64,000 nt of DNA from Prevotella sp. (lineage in GTDB: Bacteria > Bacteroidota > Bacteroidia > Bacteroidales > Bacteroidaceae). Position numbers and translations under genes: made by a program. The notes beneath the pieces are model-generated. The model did no database searches, had not been told where the DNA came from, and saw only the letters and a program-made list of their open reading frames with translations. The stretch covers positions 101,386-165,385 of the forward strand of contig JAFVGI010000038.1 of assembly GCA_017475005.1 (NCBI GenBank), in the 5' to 3' direction. Positions 1 to 4,159 of the stretch are shown in pieces (position 1 is the stretch's first letter; each line of letters opens with the position of its first letter).

Positions 1-743
1 TCCCAAGAGGTGGAGCACATGGGGCTTCTATAATACCAGTTGATTCTGAGCATAGCGCCATCTTCCAGAGTATAGTGGGAGAAAGTGGTAATGAAATAGA
101 AAAGATATTGTTGACTGCATCTGGAGGTCCTTTCCGTCTCAAAACCCTTGACGAGATGAAAACCATGACAGCAGCAGATGCCCTAAAGCATCCCACATGG
201 GATATGGGGGCAAAGATTACCATAGATTCAGCCTCAATGATGAACAAGGGATTTGAGGTAATTGAAGCTAAATGGCTATTTGGGGTAGATGCGGACAAAA
301 TACAAGTTCTTGTACACCCACAAAGCATAGTACATAGTGCTGTTCAATTTAAAGACGGAGCCATAAAGGCACAATTAGGAGTACCAGATATGCGTCTGCC
401 TATACAATATGCCTTCACATATCCTGACAGACTAAACATGAGTGGAGACAGATTGGATTTCTTTAAGCAGCCGTTAGAATTCTTTGAGCCAGACCTTAAG
501 AAATTTAAATGTCTTGCTCTTGCCTTTGAAGCAATCAAGAGAGGTGGTAACGCATGCTGTGTAGTAAATGCTGCCAACGAAATAGTTAACTTCGCCTTCA
601 GACAAGGGCGCATCGGATTCCTAGACATGGGAGATATTATAGAGAAGACACTCGAGCGTGCAACAGTAATTAAGAAACCAACATACGAAGATTATATTAA
701 CAGTGATAACGAAGCTAGAAAGATAGCAGAAGAACTACTATGA
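1..743 (+). CDS. dxr: 1-deoxy-D-xylulose 5-phosphate reductoisomerase, 3' part
   Basis: Second enzyme of the MEP isoprenoid pathway: NADPH-dependent conversion of DXP to MEP in the cytoplasm. The open frame enters from the left edge (codons begin at base 3), so the N-terminal NADPH-binding part is outside the window. Visible are the IIPVDSEHSAIFQ segment, LTASGGPFR, and the catalytic-domain stretch with TIDSASMMNKGFEVIEA followed by HPQSIVHS, all diagnostic for Dxr. The C-terminal helical domain is intact and ends at a TGA that overlaps the rseP ATG (ATGA), so the two genes are translationally coupled. A dxr-rseP order is common in bacteria. Identification is firm; only the start is missing. 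Confidence 0.96.
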   Translation, partial: PRGGAHGASIIPVDSEHSAIFQSIVGESGNEIEKILLTASGGPFRLKTLDEMKTMTAADALKHPTWDMGAKITIDSASMMNKGFEVIEAKWLFGVDADKIQVLVHPQSIVHSAVQFKDGAIKAQLGVPDMRLPIQYAFTYPDRLNMSGDRLDFFKQPLEFFEPDLKKFKCLALAFEAIKRGGNACCVVNAANEIVNFAFRQGRIGFLDMGDIIEKTLERATVIKKPTYEDYINSDNEARKIAEELL

Positions 744-2191
744 TGAGTCCATTTTTAATTAAAACACTTGAATTTATTCTCGCCATTACCATCCTCGTGG
801 CTCTCCACGAAGGAGGACACTTCTTTTTCTCTAAACTCTTTGGCGTAAGAGTAAATAAATTTTACGTTTTCTTTGATTATAAGTTCAAACTTTTCTCAAC
901 AAAGTTCAATTGGTGGAGAAAGCTACGCGGTCTGCCTCCTGCTAAAAAGAAAGAAGACGGCTCTTACGAATACGAAGGAACAGAATATGGTATTGGATGG
1001 ATCCCCCTTGGCGGATATTGTCAGATAGAGGGTATGATAGACGAGACACAACATGATGTCGCTAAATTACAAGAACCTGCACAACCTTGGGAATTTAGGA
1101 GTAAGCCTTGTTGGCAAAGATTATTGATAATGATAGGTGGCGTCTTGGTAAATTTCCTGCTCGCCTTGGTGATATATTGTGCAGTCTTCTTTGCATGGGG
1201 TGAAGACTATATCGCAGTAAAAGATATGCCTTATGGCATGAAATTCAATGAGGATGCCAAAGCATTAGGATTCAAGGACAACGACATTTTGACAGGATGC
1301 ACTGATGTCGATGGAAAAACAATAGAATTCCGCGAATTTGGTGCACAATTATTTAGAGACATCGCAGCAGCAAAGTCTGTCAACGTAATACGCGATGGCA
1401 AGGAAACAGCAATTGCCACACCAGGCAATCTGTCTCTGTTGGAAATGCTGAAAACAGACCCGGTATTCTGCAGACCATTTGTTCCGGCTGAGGTAGATAC
1501 AATTCTGACTGGTACCCCTGCAGCAAAAGTTGGTTTGAAGAAGGGTGATAAGATTATCTCACTTGGCGGAAAACCCATTGATTCGTGGAATACATTCACC
1601 TATGAAACAGGACGCATGACGGACATGCTTACTGATTGCAATACTAAAGCAGACTCAATAAAGGTTCTCACAAAGCAGATTGTTTATCAACGCGGAACAT
1701 CAACAGATACGGTCAATGTGACATTCGACAACGAAGTAAAATTGGGTGTCGGCATGACCACCATTGCTAAATATGCTAACATAACACACATTGAGCATGA
1801 CATCCTATCATGTATTCCTGCAGGATGTGGCTATGCAATAGATATGTTAGGCGGCTATGTTAGCGACCTGAAATATGTAGCAACAAAAGAAGGAGCTAAA
1901 AGCCTGGGGGGATTTGGAGCCATCGGAAGTATGTTTCCACCTGTATGGGATTGGTACATGTTCTGGATGATGACTGCATTTTTAAGTATCATACTCGCAT
2001 TTATGAACATACTGCCAATACCAGCCCTTGACGGAGGACATGTTATGTTCTTGCTTTATGAAATGATTTTCCGCAGAAAACCGGGACTAAAATTCATGTT
2101 AAGGGCAGAATATGTTGGCATGGGAATACTGCTTTTACTGATGGTTGTAGCAAATCTAAATGACATACTGAGATGGCTGGGAATGATGTAA
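740..2191 (+). CDS. rseP: RIP metalloprotease RseP (site-2 protease family)
   Basis: Intramembrane zinc protease that cleaves anti-sigma factors or leftover signal peptides inside the inner membrane. The 483-aa protein has the zinc motif HEGGH at residues 23-27 in the first membrane segment and the second motif LDGGH at about 430-434 in a C-terminal membrane segment. A PDZ-like region lies around residues 250-300 (GTPAAKVGLKKGDKI). Length and order of parts fit RseP. The ATG overlaps the dxr stop by 4 bp. Its TAA stop (2189-2191) forms the first bases of the left inverted repeat of the DUF559 element that follows. A possible substrate, the single-TM anti-sigma-like protein at 37337-38023, is in this window, but that link is inference. 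Confidence 0.95.
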   Translation: MMSPFLIKTLEFILAITILVALHEGGHFFFSKLFGVRVNKFYVFFDYKFKLFSTKFNWWRKLRGLPPAKKKEDGSYEYEGTEYGIGWIPLGGYCQIEGMIDETQHDVAKLQEPAQPWEFRSKPCWQRLLIMIGGVLVNFLLALVIYCAVFFAWGEDYIAVKDMPYGMKFNEDAKALGFKDNDILTGCTDVDGKTIEFREFGAQLFRDIAAAKSVNVIRDGKETAIATPGNLSLLEMLKTDPVFCRPFVPAEVDTILTGTPAAKVGLKKGDKIISLGGKPIDSWNTFTYETGRMTDMLTDCNTKADSIKVLTKQIVYQRGTSTDTVNVTFDNEVKLGVGMTTIAKYANITHIEHDILSCIPAGCGYAIDMLGGYVSDLKYVATKEGAKSLGGFGAIGSMFPPVWDWYMFWMMTAFLSIILAFMNILPIPALDGGHVMFLLYEMIFRRKPGLKFMLRAEYVGMGILLLLMVVANLNDILRWLGMM

Positions 2192-2218
2192 CCTCCCCTA
2201 CCCCCTCCCAAGGAGGGG
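2189..2218 (+). repeat. Left inverted repeat of the DUF559 element
   Basis: Thirty bases starting at the rseP stop TAA and containing a 7-bp palindromic stem (CCCCTCC/GGAGGGG, loop CAA). It is the inverted counterpart of 2633-2662. Confidence 0.75.
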
Positions 2219-2227
2219 AAGAGAGTA

Positions 2228-3214
2228 ATGAAAAATAATTTTGCATACATAACCTCAACAACAGGGAACTACACCCTGCTGAAACACCTGGCAAAAGAAA
2301 ACAGGAAGCACATGACAGAAGCCGAATCAGTTCTTTGGAATGTGCTTAGAGAAAAACAACTTGGCGTAAAGTTTCGGCGACAACATCCCATATGTGATTT
2401 CATTGTTGACTTTCTCTGTTTGCCCCTCAATCTTATTATTGAAGTTGATGGTGGATACCACAAAAACAAGGAACAACAAATATTAGACATCGAAAGAGAG
2501 GATATTCTAAAAAGAACAGGTTATACCATTTTAAGATATACGAACGAAGAAGTGATTCAAGACACACAAAGAGTTATTAACATGATTAATTCTAAAATAC
2601 AAGAAATACAAAACAAGCCAGATGGCGGTGCCCCCCTCCTTGGGAGGGGCAGGGGGAGGTTACTTATTTTCTCTGCTCCAAGTGGTAGTGGGAAATCCAC
2701 CATTATCAACTGGTTGATGAAAGAACATCCAGAGTTGAACATGAAGTTTAGCATCTCGTGTACATCACGTCCCCCACGTGGTCAAGAACAAAATGGCATA
2801 GAGTATTTTTTCCTCACCCCAGAGGAATTCCGCAAGAAGATTGCCAATGACGAGTTCGTAGAATACGAAGAAGTTTATACCGACCGCTACTACGGCACCT
2901 TGAAGAGTCAAGTGGAGAAACAACTGGTGAATGGTGAGAATGTAGTTTTCGACGTTGACGTGCATGGCGCTATGAACATCAAGAAAGCATATACTGAACA
3001 AGCTTTAAGTTTATTCATTCAGCCCCCATCAATTGAAGAATTACGCAAGCGCCTCACAGACAGAGGTACTGAGGTTCAAGAAGATATTGAGAAGAGAATC
3101 GGCCGAGCAGAATATGAGCTTACCTTCGCAGATAAATTCGACACCGTCATCATTAATGATGATTTAAATAAAGCAAAAGAAGAAACGCTGAAGAAAATAC
3201 AGGCATTTTTATAA
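2228..3214 (+). CDS. gmk: DUF559 nuclease-like domain fused in frame to guanylate kinase
   Basis: Guanylate kinase phosphorylates GMP to GDP and is normally essential. In this 328-aa frame, residues about 20-125 are a DUF559 domain (Vsr/PD-(D/E)XK-like fold) with D57, D61 and the E72-V-D74 strand typical of the family. Residues about 145-328 are a complete Gmk with the P-loop PSGSGKST (about 151-158), the TSRPPRGQE GMP-binding stretch and the YYGT motif. The right inverted repeat is translated as the Pro/Gly/Arg-rich junction. No ATG, GTG or TTG lies in frame between the repeat and the conserved Gmk start. Gmk must therefore come from the fusion, from the internal ATG at 2582 (residue 119), or by processing. 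The gene lies 36 bp after rseP and 9 bp before the next gene. Confidence 0.9.
   Translation: MKNNFAYITSTTGNYTLLKHLAKENRKHMTEAESVLWNVLREKQLGVKFRRQHPICDFIVDFLCLPLNLIIEVDGGYHKNKEQQILDIEREDILKRTGYTILRYTNEEVIQDTQRVINMINSKIQEIQNKPDGGAPLLGRGRGRLLIFSAPSGSGKSTIINWLMKEHPELNMKFSISCTSRPPRGQEQNGIEYFFLTPEEFRKKIANDEFVEYEEVYTDRYYGTLKSQVEKQLVNGENVVFDVDVHGAMNIKKAYTEQALSLFIQPPSIEELRKRLTDRGTEVQEDIEKRIGRAEYELTFADKFDTVIINDDLNKAKEETLKKIQAFL
2633..2662 (-). repeat. Right inverted repeat of the DUF559 element, translated inside gmk
   Basis: Inverted copy of 2189-2218 with the same 17-mer palindrome. It is read through in frame and encodes the linker directly before the Gmk residues LLIFSAPSG. Confidence 0.75.
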
Positions 3215-3223
3215 AGTACCAAA

Positions 3224-4159
3224 ATGAAGAAAATAACGATTCTTCTACCCACATACAATGAAGAGCCATCCTTTTCCATGATTAAGGAATGTATGGCGCA
3301 AGTTTTGAAGGATAACCCAGGATATGAATGGGAGTTCCTTTTCATAAATGACGGAAGTACGGACAATACTTTACAACAAATCATTCGCTTACATAATGAA
3401 GATTCTCACTATAGTTACATAGACCTATCACGGAATTATGGTAAGGAGATTGCTATGATGGCAGGATTTGACTATGTGTCAAGTGATGCTGTTATAATTA
3501 TGGATTCAGACATGCAACATCCAGTTGAAGTCATCCCAGAGATGATAAAATGGTGGGAACAAGGTTACGATGATGTTTATGCAGAGCGTATGAATTCACA
3601 AGAAACATGGTTCAAGAAGAAATCTTCACAATGGTATTACCAAATTCTTCAACATTTAACTCGGGTTCCCATACAACGAAACACAGGTGATTTTAGGCTT
3701 TTGGATCGTTCATGTATAGAAGCTCTCAAACAAATGCGTGAAACAGAACGTAACACAAAAGGCATGTATTCATGGATTGGATTCCATAAAAAAGGCATTA
3801 CCTATAAACAAAAAGAGCGATTGGAAGGCAACACAAAATGGAGCTTTATGAGTTTACTTAATCTAGCATTAAACGGTATCATGAGCTATACCATTGCCCC
3901 TTTGCGCATTGTATCTGTTATTGGGCTATTAGTATCACTCATTGCATTCGCATATTTGTTATATATTCTCATCACAACATGGATATATGGTGACCCAGTT
4001 GCTGGCTATCCGACTATAATGGTGACCATACTATTTCTTGGTGGAATACAGTTACTCGGAATTGGCATCGTAGGAGAATATCTTGGAAGAGTATTCAATG
4101 AAGTGAAGAGAAGACCCGGATATTTTGTAAATAAAGTCGTAATGGGAAAGAAAAACTAA
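3224..4159 (+). CDS. GT2 polyprenyl-phosphate sugar synthase-like glycosyltransferase (GtrB/DPM1 type)
   Basis: Probably transfers a sugar from a nucleotide donor to undecaprenyl phosphate at the inner leaflet, giving a donor for membrane glycosyltransferases. The N-terminal GT-A domain shows LLPTYNEE, INDGSTDNT, SRNYGKE and the metal-binding D94-S-D96 followed by MQHP, the usual signature of the DPM1/GtrB/ArnC group. Two hydrophobic segments at about residues 228-250 and 262-285 match the two C-terminal helices of GtrB. Its neighbour is a GT87-like multi-membrane protein, a class that uses polyprenyl-phosphate sugars, so the pair may work together. The transferred sugar cannot be read from sequence. 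Confidence 0.88.
   Translation: MKKITILLPTYNEEPSFSMIKECMAQVLKDNPGYEWEFLFINDGSTDNTLQQIIRLHNEDSHYSYIDLSRNYGKEIAMMAGFDYVSSDAVIIMDSDMQHPVEVIPEMIKWWEQGYDDVYAERMNSQETWFKKKSSQWYYQILQHLTRVPIQRNTGDFRLLDRSCIEALKQMRETERNTKGMYSWIGFHKKGITYKQKERLEGNTKWSFMSLLNLALNGIMSYTIAPLRIVSVIGLLVSLIAFAYLLYILITTWIYGDPVAGYPTIMVTILFLGGIQLLGIGIVGEYLGRVFNEVKRRPGYFVNKVVMGKKN

Follow-up and report, generated by a model that had tools for sequence, protein, structure and literature searches.

A probable homing-like mobile element with triplex-type hairpin ends and a DUF559 nuclease gene at the start of gmk in Prevotella

The rseP-gmk junction of a Prevotella sp. (assembly GCA_017475005.1, contig JAFVGI010000038.1) carries a 476-bp unit that is bounded by inverted hairpin repeats and encodes a nuclease of the DUF559 family. 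The DNA analyzed is a stretch of 64,000 nt, hereafter the window, and coordinates are positions in it. Our analysis indicated that the unit (2188–2663) is probably a small, transposase-free, homing-like mobile element composed of two inverted triplex-hairpin ends and a DUF559 nuclease gene. We likewise consider it likely that this nuclease, which resembles Vsr and the homing endonuclease I-Bth0305I, moves both itself and nuclease-less repeats, and that the ends can be translated. The broader proposal, that DUF559 proteins are the mobility enzymes of a widespread class of transposase-free elements that have intrastrand-triplex hairpin ends, move themselves and far more numerous nuclease-less copies, and are adapted to in-frame insertion that turns host proteins into carriers of a nuclease domain, stands about evenly balanced in our judgment.

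A repeat search over positions 1500–3600 found a single inverted pair, 2188–2218 and 2633–2663, whose 31-nt arms are 90% complementary and enclose 414 nt. Local alignment of the left flank with the reverse complement of the right flank scored 23.5, against a maximum of 14.0 among 500 dinucleotide shuffles. The G+C content of the arms is 68% and 71%, compared with 43% for the window. Each arm consists of three parts, namely the strand CCTCCCC, a short spacer, and the hairpin CCCCTCC-loop-GGAGGGG with a 7-bp stem and a 3-nt loop, and CCTCCCC mirrors the stem. In the left end (2188–2218, plus strand), the mirror third strand CCTCCCC is located at 2192–2198 and the 17-nt hairpin CCCCTCC-CAA-GGAGGGG at 2202–2218. 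In the inverted right end (2633–2663, minus strand), the 17-nt hairpin CCCCTCC-TTG-GGAGGGG occupies 2633–2649 and the mirror third strand GGGGAGG occupies 2653–2659. An earlier interpretation made from the letters of this DNA (the sequence-only reading) had placed the arms at 2189–2662 with 27 of 30 positions matched and a 17-bp hairpin in each, which is right to within one base. On either strand, the predicted minimum fold of the left-arm DNA is this hairpin, and the same holds for the minus strand of the right arm, whereas its plus strand has a different predicted minimum. The folding of the ends in the window, as DNA or RNA, is unexceptional for their composition (z from −1.4 to +0.4).

The left end overlaps rseP (740–2191, plus strand), which was identified as a site-2 protease gene by its open reading frame (ORF) and a Pfam Peptidase_M50 match, and the rseP stop codon TAA (2189–2191) lies within the left arm. 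The hairpin contains AAGGAGG (2210–2216, plus strand), which reads as a Shine-Dalgarno-like sequence 11 nt ahead of the DUF559 ATG. The ORF that follows (2228–3214, plus strand) encodes a fused DUF559-Gmk protein of 328 amino acids (aa), as assigned by Pfam and NCBIfam scans. Its N-terminal part is a DUF559 domain, a Vsr-like nuclease of the PD-(D/E)XK type (2282–2599, plus strand; residues 19–124; PF04480, E 1e-31), and its C-terminal part is guanylate kinase (2654–3214, plus strand; Pfam domain at residues 143–319, E 7.8e-44). The frame stays open through the right arm, which is translated as part of the linker before Gmk. The coincidence of the left end with the rseP stop and the translation of the right end into gmk, both proposed from the sequence, are thus borne out. 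Comparison with relatives whose junction is empty revealed that the native gmk start is absent and that the first ordinary residues are LLIFSAPSG. The fused gene is the sole gmk match in the source assembly, which is 81% complete. Because the element replaced the gmk start, production of Gmk would depend on the fusion or on an in-frame internal start, GTG at 2552 or ATG at 2582. The Pfam matches of the fused ORF comprised Guanylate_kin, DUF559, and weaker matches to other families. In agreement with the sequence-only reading, no transposase was found between the arms among the window ORFs or the Pfam families of the fused ORF. The same genome contains a second DUF559 gene, placed between argG and argC (gene names by sequence reading), which also lies inside inverted hairpin ends of a less regular form (score 13.0).

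The nuclease domain is conserved. Residues D45, E56, and H62 are invariant in 46 aligned DUF559 homologues, and the ratio of nonsynonymous to synonymous substitution rates (dN/dS) is 0.06–0.09 in 3 of 17 pairs, the only ones with an estimable dS. A profile of the aligned homologues, searched against the PDB with hmmsearch, matched 3hrl (E 9.3e-35) and the homing endonuclease 3r3p (E 7.3e-7). According to the available text of the respective papers, 3r3p is the EDxHD homing endonuclease I-Bth0305I (PMC3943268), DUF559 has been called a member of the EDxHD group (PMC9403480), and YcjD has been placed near Vsr (PMC1189080).

We compared the gmk site across relatives. The search covered 120 genomes, and in G109 and G098, whose gmk genes are the most similar to that of the window (92% and 90% identity), the unit is missing between rseP and gmk. 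These two genomes group with the window in the gmk tree (support 100/97), where of the three only the window has the unit; in this tree L066 is labelled 'no' by the motif search despite having the element, L076 is absent, and the count of 10 changes is approximate. The empty junction of G098 (L053) contains a small palindrome, GCCTCAAAGAGGC, which could be the footprint of a lost element or chance. The site comparison covers 15 of 17 gmk loci. In these 15, the unit closely follows the end of the upstream gene and ends at most 14 nt from the Gmk codons for (L/V/I)I(F/V)S, and they lack the native start (ATG..GGNAAA or similar) that the empty relatives have. The DUF559 tree groups the window copy with that of L105 in a starred clade of their own, apart from the other 13 gmk copies and, with weaker support, beside a helicase-inserted copy. 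The L105 copy also adjoins rseP, and the other 13 are mostly downstream of yicC. The 15 gmk-site rows of the tree need four changes of site, of which at least three are forced by starred branches. The gmk start is held by two distant nuclease lineages. Judged from this tree, repeated independent occupation of the gmk start is likely and would be the simpler reading, though this is not proof.

The same comparisons bear on the possibility that DUF559-Gmk was fused long ago into a functional protein of two domains, with the repeats left as a scar. Such domestication would account for the recurrence of the fused ORF in many species (13 of the 15 loci) and for the conservation of the DUF559 domain. 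We regard it as very unlikely, since the closest relatives lack the unit, the gmk fusions hold distant nuclease lineages, and similar units are found in or before ispF, leuS, valS, hsdR, uup, and other genes. The sequence-only reading had framed a fixed fusion as a copy kept at this exact place in all strains with no others elsewhere; the closest gmk relatives are empty, the genome holds a second DUF559 element, and related ends occur at many sites. Nor is gmk a special case, as insertion with translation into or through the host is seen repeatedly at other genes.

DUF559 elements with inverted ends are widely distributed. Matches to DUF559 were found in 147 of 249 genomes of the genus, with one to eight per genome and a few of them weak, and in 170 of 296 genomes of the phylum, covering 92 of 140 genera. 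We then scored the inverted ends in several sets. In Bacteroidota elements from named contigs (Prevotella, other Bacteroidales, Paludibacter, and others), 74 of 80 had ends above all 240 shuffles, or 66 of 72 when the 8 elements common to the genus set were removed; these 80 came from the best 80 of 533 relatives, with 2 dropped at contig edges. In the genus set, which combined the 30 best-scoring loci with others chosen partly for long open frames, 60 of 71 elements exceeded all 355 shuffles. Only 1 of 22 control gmk loci without DUF559 scored above 15. This genus-set limit was exceeded by 18 of 30 elements of the phylum set, for which no shuffles were made. Outside Bacteroidota, inverted ends above 100 shuffles were present at 12 of 19 DUF559 loci (Cyanobacteriota, Deinococcota, and Alphaproteobacteria), the 19 comprising Escherichia coli K-12 and 18 plasmid records chosen from 42–44 with matches. 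With one query, DUF559 was found in 44 of 72,556 plasmid records and 3 of 50,697 phage records. Elements at five loci (L086, L146, L152, L262, and L263) seem to carry an inverted pair in place of each single end, in the manner of a composite element.

Analysis of the ends pointed to a published repeat class. In 213 arms of distinct elements, the 3′ stem matched the outer strand better in mirror than in direct orientation in 151 arms, worse in 9, and equally in 53 (159, 9, and 55 of 223 arms before duplicate removal). In terms of their letters, the ends share the build of the intrastrand triplex motif class, a hairpin with a mirror third strand; the hairpin ends of the sequence-only reading are therefore present and of a more specific kind than it described. 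The available text of Holder 2015 (PMC4666352) describes these triplex motifs (TM), or potential intrastrand triplexes (PIT), as pyrimidine-rich hairpins with a mirror third strand that occur singly or as inverted pairs in many genomes, and reports a triplex in solution for one G/C-rich motif. In that text the E. coli motifs are always intergenic, no mobility gene is reported near them, and the word nuclease is absent. The E. coli triplex motif no. 9 listed there (1351204–1351239) has fabI on one side and ycjD, a DUF559 gene, on the other. This is a match of position and not proof of origin, and ycjD has no inverted pair above shuffles. In the E. coli K-12 locus (L151, about 1704–1740 and 1893–1925), the ycjD gene is closely followed by motif no. 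9, and another palindrome, degenerate in form, abuts the ycjD 3′ end; the two palindromes are possibly a decayed element.

Repeats of this kind are also dispersed away from the nuclease gene. One end of the second DUF559 copy in the window genome is GACCCCACCCCGCCCCTCCC, a member of a genome-wide repeat that occurs at 26 places with at most 3 mismatches, versus 4 for the reversed pattern. Copies occur singly and as inverted pairs, and those inspected end sharply on the outer side near GACCCC. The number of such repeats per genome was compared with DUF559 content after 8 genomes with weak DUF559 matches had been dropped from 120. The median was 10 in the 63 genomes with a strong DUF559 match versus 0 in the 49 without (p 4e-10), and among genomes at least 90% complete, 29 of 31 with DUF559 had any repeat versus 4 of 22 without. 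After subtraction of two ends per DUF559 copy, the medians were 8 versus 0, and 40 of 63 versus 17 of 49 genomes had any repeat (p 2e-5). Three genomes (G097, G072, and G019) have 154–210 repeats each, and 47 of the 120 genus genomes have none.

Several lines of evidence are consistent with movement. In 127 elements with clear ends, the similarity of the ends tracked the similarity of the nucleases at different sites (Spearman 0.23 over 7563 pairs, with 0 of 999 permutations as high), and mean end similarity was 0.60 for the most similar nucleases versus 0.29–0.40 otherwise. Comparison of L024 and L038 revealed that the element is 96–100% identical per 100-bp step and the flanking steps 77–96%. 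In L095 and L099, about 3 kb around an element linked to RNase H (about 900–4000 of L095) is 83–99% identical, and the steps outside are 60–80% identical. Both identity tracts fit recent transfer, though ordinary recombination could also give them. In the DUF559 tree, the ispF group includes argB- and spoU-associated copies, and copies associated with gpsA and with an acyl-CoA-dehydrogenase-like gene adjoin the vor group (names by reading); read from the tree, these placements suggest jumps between sites. The earlier proposal of a mobile unit is thus supported in that the unit recurs at many sites, while transposition itself is what we infer from these patterns.

A number of observations weigh against nuclease-driven movement. 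Movement, cleavage, and the recognition or binding of the ends all rest on inference. The three forced changes of site at gmk can also be read as one gain and two losses in a tree that has few columns and unsettled bootstrap values. In many same-site pairs (gmk, vor, and gpsA) the flanks are at least as similar as the nuclease, which implies long vertical residence. No clear target-site duplication emerges, and the excess of short matches is weak: of 139 distinct elements, 26 have 5 bases in common across the ends, where mismatched pairs predict 20.1, and 11 have 6 (5.1 expected), with 1 of 50 mismatched sets as high. The correlation between repeats and DUF559 ignores phylogeny, and after subtraction 23 of the 63 genomes with DUF559 have no repeats. 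Inverted ends score 15 or less in 12 of the 30 phylum-set elements, and 7 of the 19 loci outside Bacteroidota, including E. coli ycjD, have none above shuffles. In the available text of PMC12907096, the Caulobacter DUF559 protein VsrA is linked to methylation-dependent damage and proposed as a nuclease for mismatch (very short patch, VSP) repair, and some DUF559 proteins may have host roles.

Part of this evidence would fit a different account, in which the repeats resemble repetitive extragenic palindromic (REP) sequences and owe their movement to some other enzyme or to slippage of replication on triplex-forming DNA, while DUF559, as a passenger or a repair nuclease of the host, lies between them by chance. 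The VSP-repair proposal and the DUF559 loci without repeats favor it, as do the repeats in the 17 of 49 genomes without a strong DUF559 match, G101 having 51, and the 13 in G098, where no DUF559 match is listed. The available text of PMC4666352 also ties triplex motifs to genomic instability without any mobility gene. Because independent occupation of the gmk start is likely and not forced, we have lowered our confidence in the mobile-element reading and given this account more weight. We nevertheless consider it unlikely. In Bacteroidota the gene is nearly always within an inverted pair, the ends follow the nuclease lineage over different sites, and the repeat number follows DUF559 presence; the DUF559-free genomes, several of which are incomplete, may have lost the gene.

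Analysis of the insertion sites indicated that some elements lie in frame within host proteins. Because the genus set was partly chosen for long open frames, the in-frame frequency was taken from the 80 named-contig elements alone. The frame was not open 50 aa beyond the ends in 63 of them, was open for at least 50 aa into both flanks in 9, and was open on one flank in 8, in some of these perhaps by chance; without the overlap with the genus set, 6 of 72 are in frame into both flanks. Hosts identified include gmk and ispF, at the start, and ABC-F Uup, MazG, LeuRS, ValRS, HsdR, and MetH. Host names are by sequence reading, except for gmk, rseP, LeuRS of L083, HsdR of L130, and ABC-F of L048. 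The ValRS insertion occupies one site in three contigs, and the HsdR insertions lie just upstream of the Walker A motif in three genomes and further upstream in a fourth. Alignment of LeuRS of L083 (869–4507), which carries the same element as L222 of Prevotella sp., with 1h3n gave four blocks and three inserts, with DUF559 in the third only. One LeuRS insert without a nuclease starts and finishes with repeat-encoded linkers like those of the DUF559 insert, and its sequence suggests a non-autonomous copy inserted in frame. In HsdR of L130 and ABC-F of L048, structure-aligned blocks are found on either side of DUF559, and the host chain resumes after it. Two ispF loci (L046 and L094) encode IspF with a DUF559 fusion and a short in-frame G/P-rich insert resembling a translated repeat. 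A joined-flank test for out-of-frame or antisense insertion was not used; random points were spanned about as often (72/141).

Inteins often sit in conserved protein sites such as those near Walker A. The placement of insertions in conserved proteins, as with the three HsdR copies close before Walker A, therefore raises the question of whether the transcript or its product loses the insert, as an unrecognized intron, an intein-like segment, or a bypassed segment, so that a normal Gmk, LeuRS, or HsdR is made. The inverted ends could pair both borders in RNA. Against such removal, the ORFs inspected have only DUF559 and repeat-encoded linkers between the host parts, and no HINT splicing domain was found in Pfam or NCBIfam scans of the fused window protein. 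Many copies lie at gene starts, where the upstream host part is missing, and the insert length varies while the frames remain open. Removal is accordingly a highly improbable explanation.

If the unit is a mobile element as proposed, the following mechanism can be envisaged. The DUF559 nuclease would recognize its own folded ends, or a site resembling them, and would then nick or break the DNA. Host repair would copy the unit into the site in a homing-like manner or by single-strand transfer, and nuclease-less end pairs would likewise be copied, with the nuclease supplied in trans. The insertions that survive would mostly be those that spare the host, that is, between stop and start codons or in frame. 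In-frame insertions would survive because translation can pass through the C/G-rich ends without meeting a stop codon, so that the host protein stays one chain with the nuclease as an extra domain.

The proposed element was compared with known systems as far as the available text of the cited papers describes them. REPtrons consist of GTAG/CGTC-tagged REPs with REP-associated tyrosine transposases (RAYTs) (PMC3733652). As in REPtrons, short hairpin repeats flank one small gene, dispersed copies are single or paired, the ends can supply stop codons, and some copies lie within genes. Unlike in REPtrons, the enzyme is a DUF559 PD-(D/E)XK nuclease and not a Y1 HUH tyrosine transposase, the ends are C/G-rich mirror (triplex) hairpins, and the gene fuses in frame with host proteins. 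The sequence-only reading's phrase of REP/RAYT logic with a different enzyme is fair as a functional description. No GTAG/CGTC tag was seen by reading, the ends starting with RCCYC/GACCCC-type sequence, and no search aimed at tags was made. The window element also differs from DDE or HUH insertion sequences in having no transposase gene, and whereas the E. coli motifs of Holder 2015 (PMC4666352) are intergenic, the motifs here bound DUF559 genes and are translated. Like I-Bth0305I, to which it is homologous at profile level (E 7e-7), the DUF559 nuclease occupies conserved genes, spares the host gene, and is patchily distributed; unlike it, the nuclease here has no intron or intein, has inverted-repeat borders, and is accompanied by dispersed nuclease-less ends. 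The DUF559 element therefore resembles both REP/RAYT systems and homing endonucleases, but its enzyme is not that of the former, and the latter have neither its terminal repeats nor its nuclease-less derivatives. Rickettsia palindromic elements (RPEs; cited in PMC3733652) are likewise palindromic repeats in frame in proteins. RPEs are not known to have an autonomous partner, whereas here such ends enclose the gene of a candidate partner nuclease. In a literature search mostly at title and abstract level, with subscription papers largely outside it, we found no report linking DUF559 to these repeats.

The widespread family DUF559 (PF04480) is still without an annotated function, and no mover accompanies the published descriptions of triplex repeats. 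Linking them gives each a function, and the proposal is testable in E. coli, with ycjD and its nearby motif, or in Bacteroidota. For annotators, fused 'DUF559-Gmk' or 'DUF559-IspF' proteins and interrupted LeuRS or HsdR are probably element insertions. If the proposal is true, the long-known triplex/PIT repeats would be explained, and the elements would serve as a model for the spread of in-frame palindromic elements. In-frame invasion of essential genes without splicing would solve in another way the problem addressed by introns and inteins, and it would provide a route for proteins to gain domains and linkers.

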